This document shows, piece by piece, positions 22,698 through 37,281 of a stretch of 38,344 bases of DNA. This DNA comes from Candidatus Altimarinota bacterium. GTDB taxonomy: Bacteria; Patescibacteriota; Gracilibacteria; BD1-5; UBA2023. Both the position numbers and the translations under genes were made by a program. The first letter of the stretch is position 1; every line of letters starts with the position of its first letter. The stretch covers positions 1 through 38,344 of the forward strand of contig JANJWP010000028.1 in NCBI GenBank assembly GCA_024709505.1. Reading direction: 5' to 3'. The notes beneath the pieces were generated by a model. The model made no database searches. It was given only the letters and a program-made list of their open reading frames with translations, and had not been told where the DNA came from.

Positions 22698-22725
22698 ATG
22701 CTACCACGTATCCGTTCTCCGTCAA
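22698..22725 (-). promoter_or_regulatory. Promoter of the Cys-rich prepilin gene
   Basis: On the minus strand TTGACG (22720-22725), 16 nt and TAGCAT (22698-22703), about 50 nt before ATG 22648. The hexamers and the long leader resemble those of the pilin-RCC1 gene (TTGACG, TAGTAT), so the two may be regulated alike. Confidence 0.5.
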
Positions 22726-22733
22726 GTTTCTGA

Positions 22734-24254
22734 TTATTTTTTGTACCCCACCAATACGAAATCGTCAGGCTTTCCTCCTCGCGAGCGCCATTCGAAGTGG
22801 AAGGCGTATTTCTTTTGGACGAGGTCGTGGTTGAGGAAATTGTTTCAAAGCACCGTCCAAAGCCGGTATCCCTTGTCGGAATCGAGCTTATGGAGGAAGT
22901 TGGAGTACAATTCCTGCGTGCCTTCGAAAAAGTCTTCCAGATCGTTGGCCCAATAGTCTTCGTCGAAGCGGATTTTTCCTTCTTGGAGACCTTCGCGTAC
23001 GAATCCGGTTTTCGAAAAATCCCAAGCGTAGGTTTTGCAAACGAAGGATTTCGACGTACCGAACCGAACGAGCACCCGGTAGGCGCCGTCGGAACTTTGG
23101 AGGACGAGGTTTTTCAAGTTGTCGTCCGGGTCGGCGAGCTTGGTCGCGAGAAACCTTCCGTTCAAAAGCCCGAGCACGAGTTTGTCTTGCTTTGCTACGT
23201 CGCGTTCTTCGTCGCGAACCGGAGCGAAGGCCCGTTTTACCGGGGGAACGAGCGAAACGTCTTTCCGGCTTTCGAGCGCCGCCTTTGAAAAGACGGCTTC
23301 GGCCTTGATTCCCGGAACGGTGCCGACGCGTTCGGCCTTTCCGTTTTTCACGAGGTAGGAAACTCCGGCTTCGAGAAAATCCTGCGGGAAATCGCGGCCG
23401 TATTTTTTCGCGAGTTCCCGTTCGATCGTCAGGATTTCGGGCAGCGGAAGGACGTTTACCGCGGCGATGTCCGCATCGAGCGCTTTGGGATAGCGGAGTC
23501 ATTGTCCGGCGAAAAGCCGGCAAAATCCCCGGATTTTCGTAAAGTCTTCGAACTCGGTTTCGTATTCGTCGAACATGGCGTACTGCCACTCCATCCATTC
23601 GCCGCGTTCGCGGACGTATTCCTTTTCGAACTTTTTTCGTTCGTTCGGAACCCCGATGTCGTGGATTTTCAGATTGCCTTCGAGTTCGTTCCTCGTGGCG
23701 ACGTAACAGATCGTCCCATAGGGCTTGTCGCTCAAAAACGCCGAGAGTTTTTCGCGTTCTTCGGGGATTTCGGGCGGGAGGGTATCGATTTCGAGGTAGG
23801 CGCAATCGGTACCGTCTTCGACCTTGAGCGTCATGACGTCCTCTTCGTTTCCTACGCCGTCGTTTTGGAATATGAGGCCCGATACCGTGATTCCCGGTCT
23901 CGGCGAATAGGATTCGAGGTTTTTCAGTATTCGTATCCTCGCGTTTTTAAGGTAAGCCTCAAAAACCGGCACGAGATACGCGAGCGTTTCGGGGAGAAGG
24001 AGTTCGAAGCCGTAACGTTCCGAGAGATCGGTCAGGAAGTAGGGGTCGAGATGGTCGGCATGCGAATGGCTGACGAATACGGCGTCGATTCTCGGAAACG
24101 ATTCCCAGTCGATTTCGACGACTGGATTGCGTTCCATATAGTCGCCCACGCTGTAGCGCGAGAGCCACGAATCCGAAAGGAGGCGGTAGGGGAGCCCCGT
24201 GGAATCGGAGACTTCGATAAGGACTTCGGAATGTCCGAGGGAATGGAGAATCAT
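22734..24254 (-). CDS. MBL-fold metallo-hydrolase with long C-terminal extension
   Basis: UGA codons at 23499-23501 (Gly252) and 22845-22847 (Gly470) are read as Gly, giving 506 residues ending in TAA. The N-terminal ~250 residues are a metallo-beta-lactamase fold: the HxHxDH motif is SHSHADHLDP (His63, His65, Asp67, His68), preceded by RIDAVFV and a LLSDSWLSRYSVGD segment like the 'cold box' region of UlaG/CMP-NeuAc hydroxylase-like proteins. The remaining ~250 residues are an unrecognised domain with many Asp/Glu and aromatic residues. The substrate cannot be told; cyclic-sugar, lactone or nucleotide-linked amide hydrolysis are all possible. The start ATG lies 9 nt after the TAA of the small membrane protein gene, so these two are co-transcribed. 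Confidence 0.8.
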
Positions 24255-24263
24255 GCGGGAAAA

Positions 24264-24680
24264 TTATTGCGCGGGAACGTTCCTTTTGCGTTTTTCGAGT
24301 TCTTGTCGGAGATATTCTTTTTGAGCCGGAGTGAGGCTGTTCACGGTTTCCGCGACGTTCGCCGGGGTAACCGCGCCGCCCGTCGGGGAATTTCCGCTTT
24401 GGGTCACTCCCATTTCGCTCGCCATCTGGAGCGCGATGGGCGTCGCGATATCGGCAATGGCTTTGGTGGCGGCGTTTTTGAAATCGCCGTTCGCAAAAGG
24501 AGCGAGAATCGCGCCGGGATTGAGATAGAGTTGGAAAAGCCCGTAGGCGATGAGCGCCCGGATTCCCCATTTCCATCCGGTATTGAGCCGTTCCTCCATT
24601 TCCTTGGCCTTCAGCCTCCGGTAGACGTAGTCGATTTTTTCGGATTCCGAAGAATCGTCGGGAGCGTTCCAAAATGCCAT
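24264..24680 (-). CDS. Small single-pass membrane protein
   Basis: This 138-residue protein has a charged N-terminus, a helix-forming segment IDYVYRRLKAKEMEERL, one transmembrane helix at about 36-60 (WGIRALIAYGLFQLYLNPG region), a Thr/Gly/Pro-rich stretch and a charged C-terminal helix (TPAQKEYLRQELEKRKR). The chosen ATG 24680 follows the preceding terminator directly; an in-frame ATG at 24734 would put the terminator inside the gene. It has no UGA codon and ends in TAA 9 nt before the MBL gene. I do not recognise a family; the operon suggests work with the MBL protein. Confidence 0.62.
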   Translation of the reverse strand: MAFWNAPDDSSESEKIDYVYRRLKAKEMEERLNTGWKWGIRALIAYGLFQLYLNPGAILAPFANGDFKNAATKAIADIATPIALQMASEMGVTQSGNSPTGGAVTPANVAETVNSLTPAQKEYLRQELEKRKRNVPAQ

Positions 24681-24684
24681 GGAA

Positions 24685-24720
24685 AAGAAAAAGCGGATAC
24701 CGGGGAATGGTATCCGTTTT
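24685..24720 (-). terminator. Terminator after the symporter gene
   Basis: On the minus strand CGGATACC, a 7-nt loop and GGTATCCG are flanked by AAAA and CTTTTTCTTTT. It separates the symporter from the small membrane protein gene. Confidence 0.75.
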
Positions 24721-24750
24721 CCTTGTGGACGCAAGCGGCCGAAACCCGTC

Positions 24751-26220
24751 TTACATTTCGGACTTCGGCTTCATTTCGAGCTTGAGGTATTTGGGAAGGT
24801 ACGATCCTACGAGCATTCCCGCAATCGAGAAGAGGAATCCGGCCATTTGCGGCGGAACGGTTCCTTCGGGATTGGTGATTTCGAGGGCGACCCACGCGAT
24901 GATTCAAAACGACATCGACAGAAGGGCTCCCACCGAATTGGCCTTTTTCCAATACACTCCGGCAAAGAGCGGAACTACCGCTCCGGCCAAGGTGATCTTG
25001 TAGGCGTTTTCGACCATTTCGAATATTCCGGCGTCGCTATTGAGCGCAAAGAGCGTCACGAATACCGCGAATACGACGACCGCACCGCGGATAATCCGAA
25101 GAAACTGCGCATCGGAGACGGTTTTGAAGAAGGGTTTCAAAATGTTTTCGACGAACATGGTTGACGGCGCGAGAAGCGTTGCCGAAGCGGTGGACATGAT
25201 GGCCGAAAGAAGCGCCCCGAAGAACAGTACCTGCACGAATGCCGGAGTATAGTTCAAGATGAGGTTCGGCAATACAAGTTGCGTATCGCCGCCTTCGCCC
25301 AAAGCGGCCTGAACCATTGCCGGGTCGATGAGGGATGCGGAATACGCGATAAAGATCGGCACGAACGCGAAGAGGAAATAGAGCGATCCGCCAAGCACGG
25401 CCGAGCGGGTCGCGGTATTTTCGTCTTTCGACGACATGACGCGCTGGAAGACGTCCTGCTGCGGAATGGAACCGAAGCCCATCGTCAAAAGCGCCGTGAC
25501 GAACGCGAACATTCCGGCGTAGTTGATCGCATCGCCGACCGTGATGGCGGGGAAGGGGTTCAAGAGTCCGTTTTCGGCGGCATGGCCCACGACCGTGGCG
25601 ATGTTCCCGCCTTCGGGAAGAAGTCCGGAAACGTAGTATCCGACGATCAGCAATCCCACCATGATGATGACCATCTGGAAGAAGTCGGTCATCGCGACGG
25701 ACCACATTCCTCCAAAGAGGGTATAGGTCAAAACGATGACGGCTCCGGCGACCATGCCGATTTCTTGGGGAATCGCTCCGAGCGAGAGGGCGTGGAAGAC
25801 GACCCCGAGGGCGATGATTTGAGCGCTGACCCAACCAAGATAGGACAGCATGATGGCAATCGACGCGAGAATTTCAACGGTGCGTCCGTATTTTTCGCGG
25901 TAGAAGTCGCCGATGGTAAGAAAATTTCCCCTATAGAACGGCTTTGCAAAGAGCAAACCGACTAAAATGAGACAGAGCGCCGCACCGAAAGGGTCGGCGA
26001 TGATGCCGCCCATGCCTTCGGAGATGAAGGTGGACGAAGTTCAAAGGACCGTCTCCGAACCGAACCACGTGGCGAACACCGTCGCGGTGGCGATGTAAAG
26101 GGGGAGTTTACGTCCGGCAACGACGTAGTCTTTCGACGTTTTGACCTTGCGCGCCGCGTAGAGGCCTATCCCAAGGGATATGAGCACGTAGAGACCCACG
26201 AAAAAAACGAGGGTGGACAT
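24751..26220 (-). CDS. Sodium:solute symporter (SSS/SLC5 family)
   Basis: SSS proteins import solutes such as proline, sugars or short acids with Na+. UGA codons at 26041-26043 (Gly60) and 24904-24906 (Gly439) restore 489 residues, a usual family length, with about 13 hydrophobic helices. The N-terminus reads FATWFGSETVL-G-TSSTF, the conserved start of the SSS core (xxTxxGxxxxxG), where the UGA is a glycine in helix 2. Later motifs include the Gly-rich TLFGGMWSVAMTDFFQ block, typical of PutP-like members, and GFGSIPQQDVFQRVMSSKD, the family signature region, and ALLSAIMSTASATLLA (TM8 Na2 site). Substrate specificity cannot be read. It lies 106 nt downstream of the 7TM gene on the same strand but probably has its own promoter. 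Confidence 0.93.
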
Positions 26221-26326: not shown

Positions 26327-27928
26327 CTATTCTTCGCGTTTGGTTTCCGAAAGCTTCTCGCGGATAAGGGGAAAGAAGCGGTAGTATTCGGTCGCCTGAA
26401 GGCCGGAATACCGTCCGGTAGCGACGATCGCGGCAAGAATGACGAAGGCCGTTTCGGGATAGCTGAGGAGCGCGTTTCGAACGGAAGCCGATTCCATGAC
26501 GACGTAGGCGGCAAGGCAGACGGTGGAAAACTGTGCGATGGCGGATGCGGACTCCTTGAGTTTTGATCAGGATATGCCTTCCCCGTACAGCTTGTCGGCT
26601 ACGAGGAGTACGAAGATGAACGGAAGGATGGCCACTTGCGTGGAATAGAGGTCGAGTCCGTCGAAGAGTCCCGTCCATTTGAGCGAAGAAAGGAGCGCGA
26701 TGGATATGAGCGCGTAAAGTCCGAGCGAAAAGGTTTTTCTTGCCCCGTAAGAAATTCGGAATTTGGAGAAAGCCTTTTCGGTCATCCAAATCGCGACGAC
26801 GGCCGAAAACAGGAGGACCGCCACGTTGGCGGCGCTGGAAGCCGAAACCGAAACGACCAAAAAGAGCGGACCGAAGGTTCCGAAGGTGTGGAATCCGACG
26901 ATTTGACGGAAAATGACCAGCACGAGCGCTCCCGCCGTGAGCGAAAGGACGAAGCCGACGAACGATATCGGAAATCCGGCATAGGCTATGCGGTTGAAGG
27001 CCTTTCGGAATCCGGAACCTCCGGAGGTTTTTCAAAAGTCGATTTCCGAAGCGATTCCGGTCGCGACGTATCCGGAAGCGCCCATGAGCATGAGGAGGTT
27101 GGAAACGTTTTTTCCGGTGATGGCCCACATGCGTTCCATTCCGAGTTGTTCGGCGTATCCGGCGACCGTGAGCGAAAGCAGGTAACCGTTTCCTTCGTCG
27201 GCCACGTAGATTTCTTTTCCCGAGAACGGGGGTTTTTTAGGGGCGTCGGCGGATTGCGTTTCCAAGGCCTGCATACGCGCGGCGGCCTCGAAAAATTCGG
27301 CGGGCCGCTTTGCCGCGACGATGACGTAGTCGGATTCTTCGACGTCCTTGCGGTATTTTTCGAGAAGCGAGGAATAATCCCGGGAACCCGGAATCGAGGA
27401 TGATCCGGCGGCTCCGGTTTCCCGCAGGAGGATTGACCGCGACTTCAATGCGTCCCGGACGGCCGGAGTAATCGAAGATCCGGCATCGCCGACGTAGACG
27501 AGGGTTTTTTCGTAAATGCGGACGTTTTTCCGAGCTTCCGAAGAACATTCGTTCGCACGGGTCAGAATGGCGCGGATTTCCACCTTTCCGGCTTCCGAGA
27601 AAAACCGCAGGTATTTTTCTTTCGCGACGCTTTCCACGAGCTTCCCGTCCTTTCGAAGCTCATAAACGATCCGGTCGCCTTCGTTCATCGTTCCGTTTTC
27701 CGGAAGCGCGAGGTATTCCTGGGAGGTTCCAACCTTTACTTCCTCGGGACCCGAAATCGCAATGGTTTCCCATTGGCAACCGGCGGCCGGCGTTTTTGGG
27801 TTTTCCGTTGGCGCCGCCGAAGCGGAAAAGCTTCCCGCGGAAAGAACGGCGAGGAGGAAGCCTCCAAACATCGGGGCGATCGAAGATTTGAACGAAGTGG
27901 GGAACATGTTTTTCGGGGGTTTACGCAT
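26327..27928 (-). CDS. Signal-peptide protein with C-terminal 7TM_transglut-like membrane domain
   Basis: UGA codons at 27032-27034 (Gly299) and 26567-26569 (Gly454) restore 533 residues ending in TAG. A signal peptide (1-39, SASAAP end) leads to an outer part: an Ig/PKD-like beta domain (about 55-125), then an alpha/beta segment (about 140-225, KTLVYVGDAGSSITPAVRDAL). The C-terminal half (about 245-530) has around seven helices and the phrases RQIVGFHTFGTFGPLFL and GRYSGLQATEYYRF, which match the 7TM domain known from 'inactive transglutaminase fused to 7TM' proteins. Those are genomic neighbours of RimK-like ATP-grasp ligases. Here the transglutaminase part is absent and replaced. Its start overlaps the end of the ATP-grasp gene by 8 nt, so it is in the same operon. 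It may display or receive the ligation product at the membrane. Confidence 0.78.
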
Positions 27929-28973
27929 AAGAATCCGATACGGCGTCGAGCCAGGTTTTAAGAAACTGCCGTTCTCCGGTTTCGTTAAGGTAACCGGTAA
28001 GGACGTTGTTTTCGATGAAATAGAATTTCCCCTGTTTCGTCACGATGACGTCGAGCCCTCCATGATTATCGATGATGACCGAACAAAAAGTCTGGACGGC
28101 TACCGTGAGTCCTTTGGGGATTTCGCGGGGCTCAAGCGGCGCTATTTCCCCGCCTTCTCCCGGAACGTGCACGACGTGCTTCGGAAGCCGTCTGCGTTTG
28201 TACATCCCCACGATTTTCACTCCTTCTTCGGATTTCGTCCAAAGCACGCGGATTTCGCAATCGAGGGCGTCGAGAAGCTCAAAGGCAGCAAATGATTTCT
28301 TTCCTCCTTCGTAGAGCTGCGAGACGGCTACCAAGAGGTTGTTGGAATCTTTCGGGTCTCAGAGGTCAAAGGCCAAAATCCCCTTCCCCCCGGAGTACCC
28401 GTCGATTTTCAAGACCACGTTCCGCCCCACTCCGTATTCGCTTTTGAGAAAATCCCGAAAAAGCCGGGGATCGGAATCCTTCGTTATCAGTGGGAGCGCC
28501 ATTTTCGGAACGTGGACGTCGCACCCGCTGACTTTTCCCCAATACGAAGAAAACCGCTTGGTTCCAAAAAAATCGAGCCGGAAATCGTAGGCGAAAAGCA
28601 CTTTGATGCCAAAGGCGGCGGCGAGGTATGATTTAAAGAAGGCCAAGTATTCCTTTTCGACGCCTTCGATTCGCGGAAAAAGGATTTCGGAGCCGTCCTC
28701 GAACCGTTCGAAGTTTTCGGATTCGCCGTTCCAGTAGTAGGCTCCGGCTTTGGTTACGTAGACGTTCGGCGAAACAATGGCTCCAAATTCGTCCGGGCTT
28801 CCGAGCCGTTTGGCGAAAACGTAGAAAGTATCAACCGAACTCGCTTGGAATTTTTTGTACGCGACAAGGTTCGATTCGACGTCCCGGAGCATGGGATAAT
28901 CCCAGTTTCGGTAATACTTCCGTATTTCCGAAAGGCGGTGTTCCGAGAATGGGGAGATGAGGTAGCGTTTCAT
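27921..28973 (-). CDS. ATP-grasp family protein (third of operon)
   Basis: UGA 28359-28361 (Gly205) is read as Gly and sits just after the glycine-rich ATP loop. The protein is 350 residues. The nucleotide-binding segment VVLKIDGYSGGKGILAFDL matches the ATP-grasp 'KP..GxGGKGI' loop, and the metal site shows as GGLDVIVTKQGKFYFIENN (Asp and Glu-x-Asn). The N-terminal ~180 residues differ from RimK and include YLISPFSEHRLSEIRKYY. It should form an amide or similar bond through an acyl phosphate; the substrates are unknown. It starts 4 nt after the ATP-grasp/DUF1704 gene and overlaps the 7TM gene by 8 nt, which argues for coupled translation. Confidence 0.8.
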
Positions 28974-28977
28974 GGGA

Positions 28978-31293
28978 TTATTCGAAAAGCGGAAGGTCTT
29001 CTATCTTGATTTTCGCGACGAGGAGCCGGTCGGGGTTTCCTCAGGAGGAAACCCATTTCTCGATTTTTTCCACGCCGTCGAGATAGACTTTGTCTTTAAG
29101 GAACGCGGCTCCCGAATGGGATGAAGACGTATCGCAAACTCCGCGTTTCGCTCGGACGCAAGCTTTGAAGACCCGTTCGAGATCGCGCTCGGGATCGGCG
29201 TTGCGAACGAATTCGGCCAGCGACGAAAACGACGATCCGCAGGCTTTTCGACAGACCTCGTACTTGAAGACGTGCGCATCGCGGTATTCGGGATTTTCAT
29301 AGGTTTGAAGGCTTCGCCATACGGCGAGACCTTCTTCGTCGCGAAGGTAGAATCCCGTTCCGGATTGAAACAGCTTGAGTCCGGTTTTTTCGCCGTTCAT
29401 TCGGCGGACCAAGTGGGTACCGATTTCGTGTTCGAGCGTTCCGGTGATTTCGACGTCGCGGATTTTGGCGCCTTCGGCGACGTTGATCCGAGGAGCGTCA
29501 CCCACCGCGACCGCGATGCGCGATCCTTCCCTCGACACGAATCGTACCGGAACTTCCGGATGTCCGACCTCGCGCAATTTTTCCGAAATGGCGCGCGAGA
29601 GTTCTTCTTTGGAGAGGAGATTGCCTTGAACGACGTTTTTCGGCCGGGTTTTTGAAAAATCGTGGACGACTTTGGAAAAGCCTCCGTAAAGGGCGACGTT
29701 GGCTTCCAAAAGTCCCGCGAAATCCTGTTTCGCGACGGCTTCGATGAGTTCGATGCGGAGTTTGAGTTCACGAATTTTTTCAACGTAGGCGTTCGCGAGC
29801 CGCGGCGATGATTTCAGCCGTTTCCGAACGGCTTCCTCGGCCGTTTCGAGCGATTTCCAATAGTTCGAAAGGGTTTCCGGAGCGGGGAGATCGTATCGGA
29901 AAAACGGATCGTAACGTCCGCCGGAGGCGATGAACGCGTCGAGTTCCTCGTAGTAATTTTTTGGACGGAGGATTCCGGTTACGTTGAGTTTCCGCGAGAT
30001 TTCCGAAACGTCGCGGTCAATTTGGAGCGTTTCGGGAATTTCGTCTTCCGCAATCCCAAAAGATTTGGCGACGGCCCCTTCTCCGGCTTTGTGGACGGGG
30101 CGGATGAAAAAGTCTTTCACGGCCGATTTCCCCAAAACGATTTCCCCCGATTCCGGAGTTTCGGAGACGTGAAATTCCCCGAGGGAAATTTTGGCGCCGC
30201 CTTCGAATTCGATCTTTCCGCCGTCCGCCGCTTCCCGGAGGGATGGATGAACCGAAGTTCCTTCGCGGGAGAGGTCAACGCGCACCATGACCGAAACCTT
30301 CGCGCCCCCTTTCGGGGCGAGCTTCGCGTTTTGCGAAAGGCAGAGTATCCGGTCTTCGGAGACTGTCTGCCGTTTTTCGGGATCAAAGAGGGCCTTCGCG
30401 ATTTCGACGCCTTTTTCCGGGTCGGCAACCTTCATCTTTCCGAGTTTTTCCAAACGATCTTTGAGAGGGAGTCCGCAGACGTTTTGGATTTCGAGTCCCG
30501 CTCGGGCATTGATTTCGAGGATTTTCGGTCCGTCCGGAGTGATGACCCAGTCGAGGGCAAGATACCCGAGGTTGGTAAAAAGCTGGATTTCCGAGGAATA
30601 GAGGAGGATCGAATCCCAGTGGGGAATTTTTCGCTTTTCGAACGGAGCGTATCCTTTGGGGAATCTGGCCGCATAAAAGCGCCGGTCAACGAAACAGCTC
30701 GTGATCTCCCCGCTCGCGATGCCCAATCCGAAGCCTACGCCACCTTGCGCGAGATTGGCCTTCCCGTCGGAACGGTCGGTCGGCATGCGGACCATTGCCG
30801 CCACTGGAACGAGATTGAAAACGATGACCCGAATATCGGCGAGCCCGTGTTCGCAGAATGCCGAAAACGAATCCGAAGGAACGAGCGTTTCTTCTATGAG
30901 GACGCTGTCGGTTCAGGAGGTGACCGAATATTCGCCTTGGAGAATGTCGGAAAGCCGGCGGGCGAATTCGCCGCGTTCGTATTCGCTTCCCGAAGTCTTG
31001 AAGAGGGTCGTTTGGTCACGCCGGATTTTCCGGACGATCATGATTCCCTGTCCTTTGCTTCATCGGTTGGGCTTCACGACGAATTTTTCGGGAAGCGTGT
31101 CGAAATCGAAGTGCCGGAGTTCGTCTTCGGTTTTGATTCGTCCGTAGGTTTCGGCGACGGGGATTCCGCGTTCGGACAAAAACCGTTTGGTACGGTTCTT
31201 GTCGTCGGCCAAACGGATGCCCTTTCGGGGGTTGAATTTTTTGACGTAGTCGAGATTGCGGGCGTTAATCCCGAGAAGTCCGAAATCGAACAT
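28978..31293 (-). CDS. RimK-like ATP-grasp ligase fused to a DUF1704 metallopeptidase
   Basis: Three UGA codons (31060, 30913, 29041; Gly78, 127, 751) are read as Gly, giving 771 residues. Residues about 1-290 are an alpha-L-glutamate-ligase-like ATP-grasp: GINARNLDYV, RLADDKNRTKRFL, the ATP loop FVVKPNR-G-SKGQGIMIV, a NLAQGGVGFGLG loop and the metal site DWVITPDGPKILEINARAG. Residues about 350-750 are a DUF1704 (PF08014) domain with HEIGTH (622-627) and a downstream EEGLA (about 653), the HExxTH...QEGLA layout of this gluzincin family, whose animal members (MATCAP) remove a C-terminal Tyr from tubulin. One chain thus has a ligase and a peptidase. It starts 2 nt after the upstream ATP-grasp gene and ends 4 nt before the next. 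A tagging/untagging or processing enzyme is inferred. Confidence 0.88.
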
Positions 31294-31295
31294 GC

Positions 31296-32240
31296 CTATT
31301 TTACGCGGTTTTTGAAGAATTCTACGACGTTTTCCCAGTGTCGGGCCTCGGCTTCCGGGTGGGGGTATTGGAGGCCGGGGGAATCGTTGGCCTCGATGAG
31401 GTACCAACGGCCTTCGGGCGCCGAGTAGGAGAAATCGATGGAAAAGATTTCCCGACCTTCCGGGTCGATCGAAGCCGCGATTTCGCGGGCGATTTCGCGA
31501 AGGTCTTCCGGAACGTCTTCGATTTTCGGGCAGAATTCGCCCCCTCAGGCCGAAACGTTGCATCGGAATTCGTCGGCGTTTTTTGGATAACGGATGCTCG
31601 CGATGGAGATTTTTCCGCCCACGTGATCGAGGCGGAAATCGTGCACGCCTTCGGCGAGCCCCGGGATTCCTTTGGAAAAATCCTTGAATTCCTGAAGGAT
31701 GTGGACCATTCCCAAAGGAAGGAGCGCTTCTTTGGTTTTGGGGTCTTCGAGCTCGGTTTTGGAAACCTTTCGGATTCCTTTTCCTCCGTAACCTTCGGTG
31801 GGTTTGAGGATGAGGGTTTCGCCTTTGAGGCGGTCGCGGACGTTTTGGTACTCAAAATACTCCGAAACGAGCGCGGTGGCGGGCTGGTGCTTTTTAAACG
31901 CGAGGTAGGTCGCGTGCTTGTTGTTGGCGAGTTCGGCGACCCGGTTGGACGGAACGACCGGAACGTAGGGTTCGATTTCGGTGGCGACGAAGTAGCGCGA
32001 GTGCGACATTTTGCGCCAAAGGATTTTGGGCGAGAGGGGTTCGTTCACGGTCACGATGTCCCCTTCGGACATTTTTTGAAACCGCGAGAAACGCCGGGTT
32101 TCGACGTTGAAATCGTCGAGGGCAACGTGGACGAGTTCGATTCCGCGCGGAAGAAAGAAGTCGTTTCTCCGCGAATAGAGGCGTTTTTGATAATCGGTAA
32201 GTTCGCCGTGAAGCGAAGGGATGAGGATTCCCACTTGCAT
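31296..32240 (-). CDS. ATP-grasp ligase, first gene of the operon
   Basis: UGA 31545-31547 (Gly232) begins a Gly-rich loop, NVSA-G-GGEF, where RimK-type ligases carry an active-site glycine loop. The protein is 314 residues. Other ATP-grasp signs are TLILKPTEGYGGKGI (ATP loop), MVHILQEF (adenine-contact region), DFRLDHVGGKISIAS and the metal site SIDFSYSAPEGRWYLIEAN with the final Glu and Asn. RimK- or YheC-like ligases of this type add Glu or other amino acids to a protein or peptide end. The start chosen is ATG 32240 (an in-frame TTG lies two codons upstream). It follows a consensus -10 box by 26 nt and ends 2 nt before the ATP-grasp/DUF1704 gene. Confidence 0.85.
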
Positions 32241-32266
32241 TCCCAAAGGGGTTAAGGAGCCCGGCG

Positions 32267-32362: not shown

Positions 32363-33505
32363 TTATTGACAGGCTTTTACCGCTTCGGCGACCGTGAGCG
32401 CGACCTTTTTGTCGAGCGGGTCGGGGATGATGCGCTCGACGGTGGGCTCGCCGACGTATTCGGCGAGGGCTTTCGCGACGGCGAGCTTCATTTCTTCGGT
32501 GATCTTTTTCTTTCAAGATTCGAGAACGCCCTTGAAGATGCCCGGAAAGGCGAGGACGTTGTTGATTTGGTTGGGAAAATCGCTCCGTCCCGTCGCGACG
32601 ATGGCGGCGCCACCGGCGCGGGCTTCGTCGGGCATGATTTCGGGAGTGGGGTTGGCCATGGCGAAGACGATGGCGTCCTTGGCCATGGTCGCAATGTCGG
32701 CGCGGTTCAGGAGGTTGGGTTGGGAGAGTCCGACGAACACGTCGGCGCCCATGAGCATTTCCTTTAGGGTTCCGTCGCGGTTTTCCAAATTGGTAATTTC
32801 GAGGAGCTTGGTTTTGGCCGGATCGAGGTCGGCGCGGTTTTTCGAAAGGGCGCCCTTTGAATCGCAGGCGACGATATGGCGGACGCCCGCGCGGTGGAAA
32901 AGTCGGATGGTCGCGTTTCCGGCGGCCCCCGGACCATTGACGACGACGCGGATTTCTTCGAGCTTCTTGCCCGTGACCTTCATGGCGTTGTAGAGTCCGG
33001 CGAGAGCGACGATGGCGGTGCCGTGCTGGTCGTCGTGCATTACCGGAATGTCGAGCTCGGCTTTGAGGCGCTCTTCGATTTCAAAACAGCGAGGGGCCGA
33101 AATGTCTTCGAGGTTGATGCCTCAGAAGGTGGGGGCGACCGCTTTAACGGTTGCGATGATTTCTTCGGTATCCTGAGTGGACAATACGAGCGGGAATGCG
33201 TCCACTCCGGCAAATTCCTTGAAGAGCACGCATTTGCCTTCCATAACCGGGAGTCCGGCCATGGGGCCGATGTTGCCAAGTCCAAGAACGGCCGATCCAT
33301 CGGAAATTACGGCGACGGTGCGGCCCTTGAGGGTGAGCTTGTCCGCGAGCGAAGGATCTTTGGCAATGGCGCGGCAAGGCTCCGCGACGCCCGGAGAATA
33401 AGCGAGCGAAAGGTCGTCGCGGGTGTTCACGGCCACGCGGGTGACGGTTTCGAGTTTGCCACGGATGCGTTCGTGGAGCTTGAGGGATTCGGAGAAGTAG
33501 TCCAT
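32363..33505 (-). CDS. NAD(P)-dependent malic enzyme
   Basis: Malic enzyme oxidatively decarboxylates malate to pyruvate. UGA codons at 33122-33124 (Gly128) and 32513-32515 (Gly331) restore 380 residues, the size of short bacterial malic enzymes without a phosphotransacetylase tail. Motifs: SLAYSPGVAEPC, VISDGSAVLGLGNIGPMAG and MEGKCVLFKEFAGVDAFP; the joint APTF-G-GINLEDISAPRCFE, where UGA replaces an invariant Gly; HDDQHGTAIVALAG; and the NAD-binding VVVNGPGAAGNA. The catalytic Lys and metal-binding Glu/Asp (EDI.. FEIEERL, DDQHG) are present. Upstream on the same strand is glutamate dehydrogenase; the pair would move carbon between amino acids, malate and pyruvate. It has no Shine-Dalgarno. 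Confidence 0.96.
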
Positions 33506-33608: not shown

Positions 33609-34859
33609 TTACCACCCCCTCGCGTCCATGGCGGCGATGATCCGGCCCATGGCGAGAACGAACGCCCCCATGCGGAGTTCGCGGCCGTGTTCGCGGGCTT
33701 TGTCCACCACGTCGCGGGTGGCCGAGCGCATGCGCGATTCGAGTTTGACGGCGACTTCTTCGGCGGTCCAATGGAAGTTCGAATCGTTTTGCGCCTGTTC
33801 GAAGTAGCTTACGGTCACGCCTCCGGCATTGGCGAGAATGTCGGGAATGACCGGGATGCCCCGCTTGAAGAGGATGGCATCGGCTTCGGGGGTGGTGGGG
33901 CCGTTCGCGAGTTCGAGCACGAGCTTCGCGCGGACCTTGGGGGCATTGGTTGCGGTGAGGCGGTTTTCGAGCGCGGCGGGAACGAGGATATCGACGTCGA
34001 GTTCGAGGAGTTCGTCCGCGCCAATCTTTTTGGCTCCGGGATATTCCGAGACGGATTTGCGTTCCTTTTTGAGGCGGGCGAGGATTTGGTCGTCGAACCC
34101 TTCCGCGAGGTGGGCGGCTCCTCCGGAATCGGAGACCGCCACGACTTTGGCACCTGCCGCATGGAGGATTCCGATCATGGTGAGTCCGGCATTTCCCGCG
34201 CCTTCGACGGCGACGGTTTTTCCTTGGAGCGATTGTCCTTCTTCGGCGAGGAATTCGGAGAGTACGAAGAAGGCGCCCTGCGCGGTTGCCCGGTCGCGAC
34301 CTTTGGAACCTCCGGCGGAAAGGGGTTTTCCCGTAAATGCGCCCGGCGTCCATTTACCCGCTAGGCGCGAATATTCGTCAACCATCCACGCCATGATTTT
34401 GGGGTTGGTGTTCACGTCCGGCGCCGGAACGTCGGTTCCGGGACCGAGATAGCGGAAAAACCGTGCGACGTAAGCCCGCGAGAGCCGTTCGAGTTCGGTT
34501 TGCGAGAGCTTCGAAGGATCGACGACGACTCCGCCCTTGCCTCCGCCTAACGGAAGGTCGAGAACGGCGGTTTTCATGCTCATCCAGACCGAAAGGGCCA
34601 TGACTTCGTCTTCGGTTACGCCCGGATGGAATCGAATGCCGCCTTTGTAAGGACCCCTCGCCGAGGAATGTTGCGATCGGAAAGAAGGAAACGAGCGGAC
34701 GTCCCCGTCGTCCATTTCGACGACGAGATTCGATTTGAGCACGCGCTCGGGCTCGAGGAGTTTTTTGACCGTGTTTTTGGAAAATCCGGCGATATCGGCC
34801 GCGTCGAGCATTTGTTTGCGGGCGTTTTCGAAAGGGGACTCAAGGGAGGGGGGATTCAT
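33609..34859 (-). CDS. gdhA: Glu/Leu/Phe/Val dehydrogenase (glutamate dehydrogenase)
   Basis: This enzyme interconverts glutamate and 2-oxoglutarate plus ammonia with NAD(P). The 416-residue protein is colinear with hexameric glutamate dehydrogenases: ARGPYKGGIRFHPGV and MSMKTAVLDLPLGGGKGGV (substrate and catalytic lysines), PAPDVNTNPKIMAWM, TGKPLSAGGSKGR, the Rossmann motif AVEGAGNAG, and the C-terminal ELANGPTTPEADAIL and NAGGVTVSYFEQAQN. ATG 34859 is the natural start. It contains no UGA codon although it is Gly-rich, as for ychF. It is upstream of the malic enzyme gene by 103 nt and diverges from the glycosyltransferase genes. Confidence 0.96.
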   Translation of the reverse strand: MNPPSLESPFENARKQMLDAADIAGFSKNTVKKLLEPERVLKSNLVVEMDDGDVRSFPSFRSQHSSARGPYKGGIRFHPGVTEDEVMALSVWMSMKTAVLDLPLGGGKGGVVVDPSKLSQTELERLSRAYVARFFRYLGPGTDVPAPDVNTNPKIMAWMVDEYSRLAGKWTPGAFTGKPLSAGGSKGRDRATAQGAFFVLSEFLAEEGQSLQGKTVAVEGAGNAGLTMIGILHAAGAKVVAVSDSGGAAHLAEGFDDQILARLKKERKSVSEYPGAKKIGADELLELDVDILVPAALENRLTATNAPKVRAKLVLELANGPTTPEADAILFKRGIPVIPDILANAGGVTVSYFEQAQNDSNFHWTAEEVAVKLESRMRSATRDVVDKAREHGRELRMGAFVLAMGRIIAAMDARGW

Positions 34860-34929
34860 GCGGGTGGATTTTTGGAATTCTGGCGTTTTTCCGGGCTTGG
34901 GATTTCGAGCCGAAAAAAGCCATCCGAGA

Positions 34930-34957
34930 AGGTTACCACTCGATGGAAAAAATTCAA
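34930..34957 (-). promoter_or_regulatory. Candidate promoter of the glutamate dehydrogenase gene
   Basis: On the minus strand TTGAAT (34952-34957), 16 nt and TAACCT (34930-34935), in the divergent intergenic region. Confidence 0.4.
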
Positions 34958-34971
34958 ATCGATTTATGAAT

Positions 34972-34999
34972 TTGCCATTCCTTCGCGTCAAGATATAGT
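34972..34999 (+). promoter_or_regulatory. Promoter of the glycosyltransferase genes
   Basis: TTGCCA (34972-34977), 16 nt and TATAGT (34994-34999), about 31 nt before ATG 35031. The three glycosyltransferase genes downstream are spaced 1 nt apart or overlap and should share this promoter. Confidence 0.6.
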
Positions 35000-35030
35000 T
35001 TGCACATCCGGAGTTTTGCCATCCAAGTCC

Positions 35031-36146
35031 ATGAATCTTCTCCAACTTTTTTTCGCGGTATCGGGAATCATTATTTTCGTTATCGCGCTCGACATTTCGA
35101 AGCGGCAAAAGTTCAATGCGCTTCACTTCCTCGTGTTTCTCTGAATCGGTGGCGGACTCCTGCTTTTTGCCTATGTGCCCCAAGCGCTCGATCTTATCGG
35201 CCGCATTTTCGGAATTCCCCGCGGAGCAGACGTGCTCGTATACGGCGGCATCGTCTTCCTGTCGTATTTTTCGCTCCTCCTTTTGAACAAGACCGAAAAA
35301 AACCGCGAAGACACCACCCGTCTGGTCCGTGAAATCGCCATCCACACCGGAGCGCCCGAAAACGCCCGCCTCGACTATTCGGGGGTTTCGGTAGGGGGTT
35401 CGCCATCTTCGTCAGACCCGTCTTCGTTCGACCGGCCCCTTCCATCGACTTCGAACGTGGCGTTTCTCATTCGGGCTTATAACGAATCGTCGCGTCTCGA
35501 AGGCGTGATAGACGGCCTCAAACTCGCCGGATATTCCAAAATCCTCGTCGTTGACGACGGATCGCGCGATGCCACTTCAGCCATTCTCGCGCGCCGGAGC
35601 GACGTGTTTTCGTTGCGGCATCCGCAAAACCGGGGCGGAGGGGCCGCGCTCGAAACCGGATTCGAATTTTTCCGCCGGTACGCGCGCGGACTCTGAATAG
35701 ACTTTATCGTCACGTTCGATGCCGACGGCCAGCACGACGTCGCCGACATGCCCCACTTTTTCTCGGCTTTTGAATCCGACCCCTCCTTGGACGTGGTATT
35801 CGGGTCGAGATTCGTCGTGAAGACCAATTCCAACGTTCCGTTTTTTCGAAAGATCATCCTCATGGGCGGCAGGATATTTACCCGCGTCATCTCGGGCGTG
35901 AGCCTTACCGATTCGCACAACGGATACCGGATGCTCCGCATCTCTTCGGTAGAAAAGATGCGCCTTACGATGGACGGCATGGAATACGCGAGCGAACTCA
36001 TCGACCAAGTGCGCGAGTTCGGTCTGAAATTCCGCGAGGTTCCGGTGAACATCCGCTACGACGCCTACACCCTCGGCAAAGGGCAAAAATCTTCGAACGC
36101 GGTGAACATCGCGGCGAAGATGATTTGGAACAAGTTTTTTAAGTAG
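35031..36146 (+). CDS. DUF2304 membrane domain fused to a family 2 glycosyltransferase
   Basis: UGA codons 35142-35144 (Gly38) and 35694-35696 (Gly222) restore 371 residues ending in TAG. Residues 1-115 are a DUF2304 (PF10066) domain: three helices (ISGII-like helix, then FLVFL-G-IGGGLLLFAYVPQ, then YGGIVFLSYFSLLLL) and a charged tail NKTEKNREDTTRLVREIA. Residues about 145-371 are a GT2/GT-A fold: NVAFLIRAYNES, ILVVDDGSRDAT, NRGGGAALETGF and TFDADGQHD, with the metal-binding DxD as DADGQ. In most bacteria DUF2304 and such GT2 genes are separate neighbours, so the fusion is notable. GT2 of this kind often moves sugar to a lipid carrier. First gene of a glycan cluster, 1 nt before the next. Confidence 0.88.
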
Positions 36147-36147
36147 C

Positions 36148-37281
36148 ATGAAAATCCTCTTCGTTCTCGATTATTACGTTCCCCATGTCGGATGAGCCGA
36201 AACGCTTTTCCGAAACGTCATCGAACGGCTCGCCAAAAAAGGGCATCAAATCAAGGTGCTCACTTGCCGGCATAACGCCGACGTGCCCGTCCACGAAGCA
36301 ATGGGGGCCAATATCGAAGTCTACCGGGTGGGTTCCGGGCGGTTCGACCTCATGTGGCACGCGCTTGGAAAAACCGGGCGGACGCTCGCTCAAGAAGCTG
36401 ACGTCATCCATACCACCACCTATTCGGCGGCGGTTCCGGCCTCGATCCTCTGAGTCCTTTTTCAAAAACGCACGGTCATTACCGTTCACGAGGTCTTTTG
36501 AAAGCTTTGGTACCGTTTCATGGGGTGGAAGGGGTTTTTCCACAAAGCCTTCGAACGGGCGGTTTTTTTGTTGCCGTTCGACGCTTATCTCTGCGTTTCC
36601 AACTATACCAAAAACAGCCTCCGGCTCTTGTTTTGACTGCCCGACGACAAACTTTCGACCGTCTATAACGGCATCGATACCGAATTTTGGGACGCTTCCA
36701 AAACCGATGTCGGACTCGCTTCGCGCATCCGCGCGGAACTTGGGCTCGAAAAAGCCTTTTCGACCCTCTATTTCGGCCGGCCGGGGGTTTCGAAGGGGCT
36801 CGAACATTTTCTCGAAGCGATTCCTCGCGTTTGCCAAAAAATCCCCCATTTCAAGGCCGTGTGCATCGTCTCGGGCGACGATGTCGAACGCGTGGCGGTA
36901 ATGAAACGCAAAATCGCGGAACTCGGCATAGCCGACCGCGTCATTTGGAAAGGGGCCGTGCCTTACGGCGAACTGCGCGAATACCTCATGGCGGCCGATT
37001 CGGTCATCGTTCCGTCGCTCGTGGAAGGATTTTGATTTTCGGCCGCGGAAGCCTCCGCCCTCTGAAGGCCGCTTGTCTATTCGAACGCCGCGGCGTTGCC
37101 CGAAGTGGTTTTTGGAACGACCGTTCCGGCAGAACCCGGAAACAGCGCCGACATCGCCCGTGCGATCGTCGATCTCTCCGAAGGAAAAACCGTCCAAGTC
37201 GCGCGGAAGGTTTTTGATTGGGAAGAGAACGTGGAGAAGACGGAGAAAATGTACGCTAATGGCGTTCGAGCATGAAAATAG
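36148..37281 (+). CDS. Family 4 glycosyltransferase
   Basis: Seven UGA codons (36193, 36451, 36499, 36634, 37033, 37063, 37273) are read as Gly, giving 377 residues ending in TAG. GT4 enzymes (GT-B fold) use nucleotide sugars. The N-terminus YYVPHVG-G-AETLF is the standard GGAE donor loop with UGA as its second Gly. Further signs are FGRPGVSKGLEHFLEAI and VPSLVEGF-G-FSAAEASAL-G-RPLVYSN, both typical EGFG...E.ALGxPVV motifs with two UGA codons. The last sense codons, GCA UGA AAA, overlap the start of the next gene (ATG 37272), then TAG. The density of UGA is high. It follows the DUF2304-GT2 gene by 1 nt. Confidence 0.93.

Follow-up and report, generated by a model that had tools for sequence, protein, structure and literature searches.

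We found that one gene of a Candidatus Altimarinota bacterium encodes an ATP-grasp ligase, a degenerate retropepsin-like domain and a MATCAP-type (DUF1704) gluzincin in a single chain. The motifs of the ligase and the gluzincin are intact, the aspartic protease motif is lost, and the gene is linked to one for an RloB-like protein. It lies on contig JANJWP010000028.1 (assembly GCA_024709505.1), in a stretch of 38,344 nucleotides that was analysed at its full length and is here called the window. The fusion is conserved widely across Patescibacteria, a group of tiny, mostly uncultured bacteria. On balance we lean towards the view that it unites the writer and the eraser of a peptide bond in one chain, as the Patescibacteria form of the RloC/RloA pair.

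The fusion gene and its three domains

The features of the locus are as follows.

26327 to 27928, minus strand: RloB-like protein, 533 aa, Pfam match to PF14402 (7TM_transglut) at residues 327-521
27921 to 28973, minus strand: 350-aa protein encoded between the fusion and RloB genes, perhaps an ATP-grasp protein that has diverged strongly, with a homologue in one relative (L012)
28978 to 31293, minus strand: fusion gene (ligase, degenerate retropepsin, gluzincin), 771 aa in code 25 (TGA is Gly)
28981 to 29979, minus strand: MATCAP/DUF1704 gluzincin domain, residues 439-771, from the PF08014 match (453-770) and a structural match
29041 to 29043, minus strand: UGA codon, Gly751
29332 to 29334, minus strand: E654 of EEGLA, predicted third metal ligand, aligned to the EEGLA of human MATCAP
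29413 to 29430, minus strand: HEIGTH, residues 622-627, HExxxH metal motif
30079 to 30357, minus strand: middle domain, residues ~313-405, retropepsin-like by predicted fold and alignment, D[TS]G replaced (VDLS)
30442 to 31260, minus strand: ATP-grasp ligase domain, residues 12-284, PF14397, RloC/RimK-like
30913 to 30915, minus strand: UGA codon, residue 127, a variable position (R, V, S, L or G among homologues)
31060 to 31062, minus strand: UGA codon, Gly78, in the ATP-binding loop
31296 to 32246, minus strand: RimK/GSH-synthetase-like ATP-grasp ligase, 316 aa, by profile match

The frame of the fusion gene ends at a TAA and contains three in-frame UGA codons, read as glycine under translation table 25. 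UGA is a stop codon in most bacteria, and this background is what favours the reading that the UGA at 29041 (the last base of the third UGA) or another of the three terminates translation, giving a truncated protein or separate chains. We consider that reading very improbable. The same single-chain architecture is encoded without any UGA by 60 standard-code homologues among the best 80 of 456 relatives, and these rule out an assembly or genetic-code artefact. Their codon for residue 78 is GGN in 60 of 60 and that for residue 751 in 50 of 60; in a first set of 39 rows, 37 have glycine at 751. The structural match to MATCAP extends to residue 771, and D766, past the last UGA, is conserved in at least 90% of an alignment of 79 rows made from the best 80 relatives. 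Because of the glycine codons at 751 and the conserved aspartate downstream, the UGA at 29041 is taken as a sense codon. An earlier note on this DNA had joined the chain by UGA-glycine and had named a real stop at 29041 as what would overturn this; the homologues bear out the single chain.

The same note had placed a ligase at residues 1-290 and a peptidase at 350-750. These limits are roughly right, and the order was confirmed by a Pfam profile search (PF14397 at residues 12-284, then PF08014 at 453-770). The peptidase really covers about 439-771, and a third domain at about 313-405 had been overlooked. The predicted structure of the full-length protein has a mean pLDDT of 90.9 and a pTM of 0.59, and therefore the domains are sure and their relative arrangement is not. 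No signal peptide is apparent by eye at the N-terminus.

The ligase domain scores 172.6 bits against PF14397 (ATPgrasp_ST), for which the cut-off is 31.4. Residues K74, G78, G81, G83, D153, R155, D248, E260 and N262 are invariant in the 79 rows, and we take the lysine, the glycine loop and the acidic and asparagine metal ligands to be the ATP-grasp functional residues. The ATP loop and metal site are thus intact, as the note had it. The ligase profile aligned to RimK chains, and the nearest folds of the predicted structure are ArgX (Z 18.0) and RimK (5zct, Z 17.4); it also resembles D-Ala-D-Ala ligases (Z up to 16.4). The nearest sequence model is TIGR02291, alpha-L-glutamate ligase-like (E 2.6e-60); with 204.1 bits against an NCBIfam cut-off of 314.2 the domain is a relative of this family, not a member.

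The gluzincin domain scores 70.3 bits against PF08014 (MATCAP; cut-off 27) and 71.7 bits against TIGR02421 (QEGLA protein), below the NCBIfam cut-off of 338.65. H622, E623, H627 and E654 are invariant in the 79 rows, and HEIGTH and EEGLA align with those of human MATCAP. The note had pointed to both motifs, and both stand; the metal motif reads HExxxH, and not the HExxH that was worded there for the case of a lost site. The best structural match of the whole fusion is human MATCAP (7z5g, Z 24.4, rmsd 2.5 over 266 residues). A second, unfused DUF1704 protein of 559 aa is encoded in the same genome (L002, G000:C27:115464-115985). It scores 30.3 bits against PF08014 and shows HEIGTH and EEGIA by eye.

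The stretch that links ligase and gluzincin can be aligned among homologues and shows a pattern of the type VDTG...IGRRDL..FLIDP. Sequence searches with this segment gave faint signals. The middle domains of single homologues match aspartic protease (clan AA) models weakly, the best at 2.3e-4. PF05618 (RloA-type retropepsin) has no match in the window protein at E 0.01, matches one of 39 homologous middle domains at E 0.028, and has no match elsewhere in the bacterium's own genome. A PDB sequence search with the middle-domain profile gave nothing significant, and the RloA chain 9g58 came at E 1.9. Two-domain proteins of other Patescibacteria provide a link: L077 and L209 have PF14397 followed by PF05618, both above cut-off, and a profile of stand-alone retropepsins and a profile of fusion middle domains match the same stretch of such two-domain proteins.

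A Foldseek search with the whole model is no test of the middle domain, which we therefore folded alone (pLDDT 87.7, pTM 0.78). The top Foldseek match is then RloA 9g58, at E 1.1e-3, with none at 0.001 or below. In VIA the domain matches RloA 9g58 with Z 8.9 (85 residues, rmsd 3.1), tied with Lpg0085 of the same family. By their titles, all but one (LolCDE) of the 50 VIA rows listed are aspartic-protease-fold entries, among which we counted 2pma and 4ehc. The domain at about 313-405 is thus predicted to have the retropepsin fold.

Its catalytic Asp-Thr/Ser-Gly is replaced by DLS in the window. Among the 79 fusions from the best 80 of 456 relatives, D[TS]G stands at the catalytic column in 2 and anywhere in the segment in 6; the column has Asp in 50, and Gly, the third residue of the motif, persists in 2. 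By eye, four rows of the first 39-row set keep D[TS]G (L014, L015, L024 and L027). In the 79 fusions the ligase has a mean pairwise identity of 51%, against 35% in the gluzincin and 25% in the middle domain. The ligase of 41 two-domain proteins reaches 49%, and their retropepsin stretch 36%.

Distribution, gene neighbourhood and motif loss

At family level PF08014 occurs in 11 of 27 genomes, and in 11 of 11 the full-length fusion is present. For the class the figure is 118 of 145 genomes, a count of PF08014 matches and not of fusions, and for the phylum it is 85 of 379. The peptidase is fused in 28 of 30 loci fetched from the phylum search; in the other two, ligase and peptidase are adjoining genes (L026) or the peptidase stands alone (L022). 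Species genomes were also scanned, and we kept the best 80 of the 456 relatives that this yielded. Seventy-eight of the 80 have a single full-length frame (standard code in 60, code 25 in 18); L097 and L101 are not full length and were left out of the alignment. The best 80 are mostly labelled Gracilibacteria, Peregrinibacteria/Peribacteria, Absconditabacteria/SR1, Magasanikbacteria and Parcubacteria. Some are labelled only Patescibacteria group or bacterium, and one is labelled Kiritimatiellales, which we take as a binning error.

In order of transcription the genes are the ATP-grasp ligase (31296-32246), the fusion, the 350-aa protein (27921-28973) and RloB, with spacings of 2 nt and 4 nt and, between the last two, an 8-nt overlap of the RloB-like start with the end of the gene before it. 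The 350-aa protein has no Pfam family match; its homologue in L012 has one at E 0.011. The RloB-like protein scores 52.6 bits against PF14402 (cut-off 25) and 32.9 against the NCBIfam RloB model NF052267 (cut-off 900); that model is matched by 26 of 29 RloB relatives at E 0.01. RloB is present in 67 of the 80 best fusion loci, in 56 within 200 nt upstream, and several of the 13 loci that miss it are on short contigs. Tallied by hand over the 145 class genomes, PF08014 and PF14402 are both present in 110, apart in 1 and 8, and both absent in 26. We also considered RloB as a relative of the polyglutamate exporter PgsC; one of 29 RloB proteins matched (that of the window, E 2.3e-4), and the idea was not used.

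From the RloA-like fold in the fusion and the RloB-like 7TM neighbour it follows that the window holds an RloABC-type locus, in which a single chain carries ligase, retropepsin and gluzincin. L163 is the sole genome among the 145 of the class sample with a PF05618 match. It uses code 25, belongs to the same order, and has separate genes for RloB, RloC and a DTG-bearing RloA, with no peptidase fused.

Elsewhere in the window, a malic enzyme is encoded at 32366-33505, near the ligase operon and a glutamate dehydrogenase-type frame at 33612-36149 (minus strand, putative start). The latter has its dehydrogenase part at residues 467-845, preceded by about 460 N-terminal residues without a Pfam match. 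A frame of 797 residues at 22701-25091 (plus strand, code 25) has no Pfam match.

We compared the retropepsin motif in 151 RloC-type proteins, counting a DUF1704 gene as adjacent if it lies within 300 nt on the same strand. L163, in which the ligase has no fused retropepsin and RloA is separate and intact, was counted apart. D[TS]G is kept in 63 of 63 two-domain Patescibacteria proteins without an adjacent DUF1704 gene. With DUF1704 adjacent and not fused it is kept in 3 of 8 and lost in 5, and with DUF1704 fused, among the best 80 of 456 relatives, it is kept in 2 of 79 and lost in 77. In a tree the fused proteins form one clade and the five non-fused losses another, with support 99. Since the losses fall in two clades, the motif was lost independently at least twice, and loss was observed only where a gluzincin is present. 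In the five non-fused cases DTG has become NTG (four) or NTS (one), and the adjoining gluzincin retains HExxxH and EEGLA. The motif is intact in the nearest relatives of this clade, and these have no neighbouring DUF1704.

An independent-pairs test of motif loss against DUF1704 was not significant; with two clades only, significance is out of reach, as the sign test needs at least six independent transitions. A Fisher test of the association takes no account of kinship. Of the 71 two-domain proteins, 41 came mostly from PF05618 matches, and because of this the set favours intact motifs. The other 30 were found through RloB and are free of this bias: 25 of 25 without adjacent DUF1704 keep the motif, and 5 of 5 with it have lost the motif. 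These 30 are the regions, out of 36 fetched by RloB, that yielded a ligase of at least 250 residues. Left out were L268, L301 and L302 (no ligase), L269 (two frames), and L278 and L294 (cut by the end of the region or contig).

Proposed function and alternative readings

We suggest that the N-terminal ATP-grasp domain would ligate amino acids, most likely glutamate, to the carboxyl of a growing chain or protein, and that the C-terminal MATCAP-type gluzincin would remove the ligated residues from the free end, as a carboxypeptidase. A former RloA-type retropepsin would have lost its catalytic site after the gluzincin joined the locus, and the gluzincin would have taken over as eraser of the ligase's peptide tag, which is probably polyglutamate. 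RloB would be the membrane end of the system, perhaps in export.

The degenerate retropepsin may have been kept to bind or activate the ligase: activation of a ligase is a second role of such retropepsins, seen with RimB and RimK. RimB removes glutamates and stimulates polyglutamate synthesis by RimK, and in vitro polymer was detected only with both present, according to the available part of PMC11957791. Taken to its full extent, the proposal would place a whole polyglutamylation cycle in one protein, in which a glutamate ligase would write, a pseudo-protease would serve as its built-in activator, and a MATCAP-type deglutamylase would have replaced the pseudo-protease as eraser. This extended version is tentative and we regard it as rather doubtful. 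The S6 ribosomal protein was considered as a substrate and dropped, the TDE end of the own genome's S6 being a mere hint.

That writer and eraser of a peptide bond might share one protein was the central idea of the earlier note. It is supported by the two intact active sites and strengthened by the RloABC context. In Pseudomonas, as described in the part of PMC12239564 available, the secreted retropepsin RloA opposes RloB and RloC, and deletion of the ATP-grasp gene rloC, or of rloB, rescues the loss of the retropepsin.

These genetics bear directly on another reading, in which the gluzincin matures the product or precursor of the ligase in one biosynthetic direction and nothing is erased. 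ATP-grasp ligases also pair with peptidases in peptide biosynthesis, for instance in graspetide-type systems. Further ATP-grasp genes adjoin the fusion (31296-32246, possibly 27921-28973), and the relative L185 joins RloC-retropepsin to a further ATP-grasp domain. We nevertheless think such maturation unlikely, as the opposition in Pseudomonas, where loss of the ligase rescues loss of the peptidase (PMC12239564, in part), speaks against it, and so does L163, whose separate-gene RloABC has a retropepsin in the position of the peptidase. In a further reading the gluzincin would edit the envelope, and what the ligase adds would not be glutamate; a component of the envelope or of peptidoglycan could be the acceptor. 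The cell-shape, osmotic and cell-wall antibiotic phenotypes of rlo mutants (PMC12239564, in part) and the resemblance to D-Ala-D-Ala ligases fit this. The nearest sequence model, TIGR02291, is glutamate-ligase-like, the nearest folds are ArgX and RimK, and RloA of Pseudomonas cleaves polyglutamate in vitro (same source), all of which argues against it; we give envelope editing a small chance.

The retropepsin fold of the fusions could also still be active in another way, for example as a dimer with an altered site, leaving the gluzincin a separate job. The predicted retention of the fold and the Asp found at the catalytic column in most rows would suit this, as would the two rows with D[TS]G. 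The near-complete loss of the motif glycine makes it quite improbable, together with the low identity of the middle domain beside the ligase in the fusions; the gap is narrower in the two-domain proteins, in a comparison of stretches that differ in length.

The locus is a natural experiment in enzyme replacement, in which an aspartic protease site was lost, at least two times, where an unrelated metallopeptidase joined. The bacterial DUF1704 family gains a testable function, and writing, erasing and regulation could be dissected in one protein by point mutants, in bacteria with a poorly known cell-surface biology. Should the polyglutamylation cycle hold, trimming of a bacterial polymer would be a plausible original role for the family of the animal tubulin-trimming enzymes.

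Comparison with known systems

The locus links RloABC and RimB/RimK, both recently described, with the animal enzymes that trim tubulin tails. MATCAP/TMCP proteins (KIAA0895L, KIAA0895) share PF08014, HExxxH and EEGLA with the fusion; they are eukaryotic, act on tubulin and are not fused to a ligase, whereas the protein described here is bacterial and ligase-fused. TMCPs of human and Tetrahymena trim polyglutamate chains and C-terminal residues of tubulin, according to the part of PMC10499314 available. Tubulin tyrosine ligase and TTLL enzymes together with MATCAP likewise set a ligase against a MATCAP-type peptidase at one kind of chain end, as separate eukaryotic proteins, unlike the fusion. 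The earlier note had drawn this tubulin parallel from removal of tyrosine. It is better than was stated there, since MATCAP/TMCP also shorten polyglutamate (PMC10499314, in part) and the folds closest to that of the ligase are glutamate ligases and relatives of these such as RimK. Close common ancestry holds on the peptidase side only, and a tubulin-like substrate does not follow from the parallel. The Pfam TTL model has weak matches in two RloC relatives (L163 at 1.4e-4, L209 at 7.2e-4).

RimK, LysX and ArgX have the ATP-grasp fold in common with the fusion ligase (Z 17-18) and differ from it in Pfam family and operon. Among the relatives we observed further arrangements. L173/L229 and L170/L228 are RimBK-like hybrids of Patescibacteria with a DUF1704 gene close by, in the order PF05618 then RimK in L173 and ligase then PF05618 in L170. 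In L167, L171 and L176 a stand-alone retropepsin gene directly adjoins a DUF1704 gene. L185/L230 (922 aa) is a different chain of three parts, RloC-retropepsin being followed by an additional ATP-grasp-type domain (PF02655, 7.9e-11); L197 (856 aa) is of similar length, and its last part has no Pfam match.

No paper on a fusion of ATP-grasp and DUF1704 was found in the searched literature, which covers few subscription journals. A ligase and a peptidase in one chain have already been published as RimBK. For the RimBK hybrid of Desulfotalea psychrophila, the available part of PMC11957791 reports protease activity and no ligase activity seen on RpsF. RimBK is like the fusion in joining a retropepsin and an ATP-grasp ligase. 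Its retropepsin is N-terminal and active, it has no gluzincin, and its ligase is of the RimK and not the PF14397/RloC type; the order in the fusion is ligase, retropepsin, gluzincin.

RloABC resembles the locus in its RloC-type ligase of the ATP-grasp kind, its RloA fold and the RloB-type 7TM protein encoded in the operon; in Pseudomonas its ligase and peptidase are genetically opposed (PMC12239564, in part). RloA of Pseudomonas is secreted and catalytically intact, whereas the fusion has ligase and retropepsin in one chain, with the retropepsin motif lost, and adds a MATCAP-type gluzincin. New here are a chain that runs from PF14397 through retropepsin to gluzincin and is conserved widely in Patescibacteria, the RloB partner of this chain, and the finding that the retropepsin site was lost more than once.
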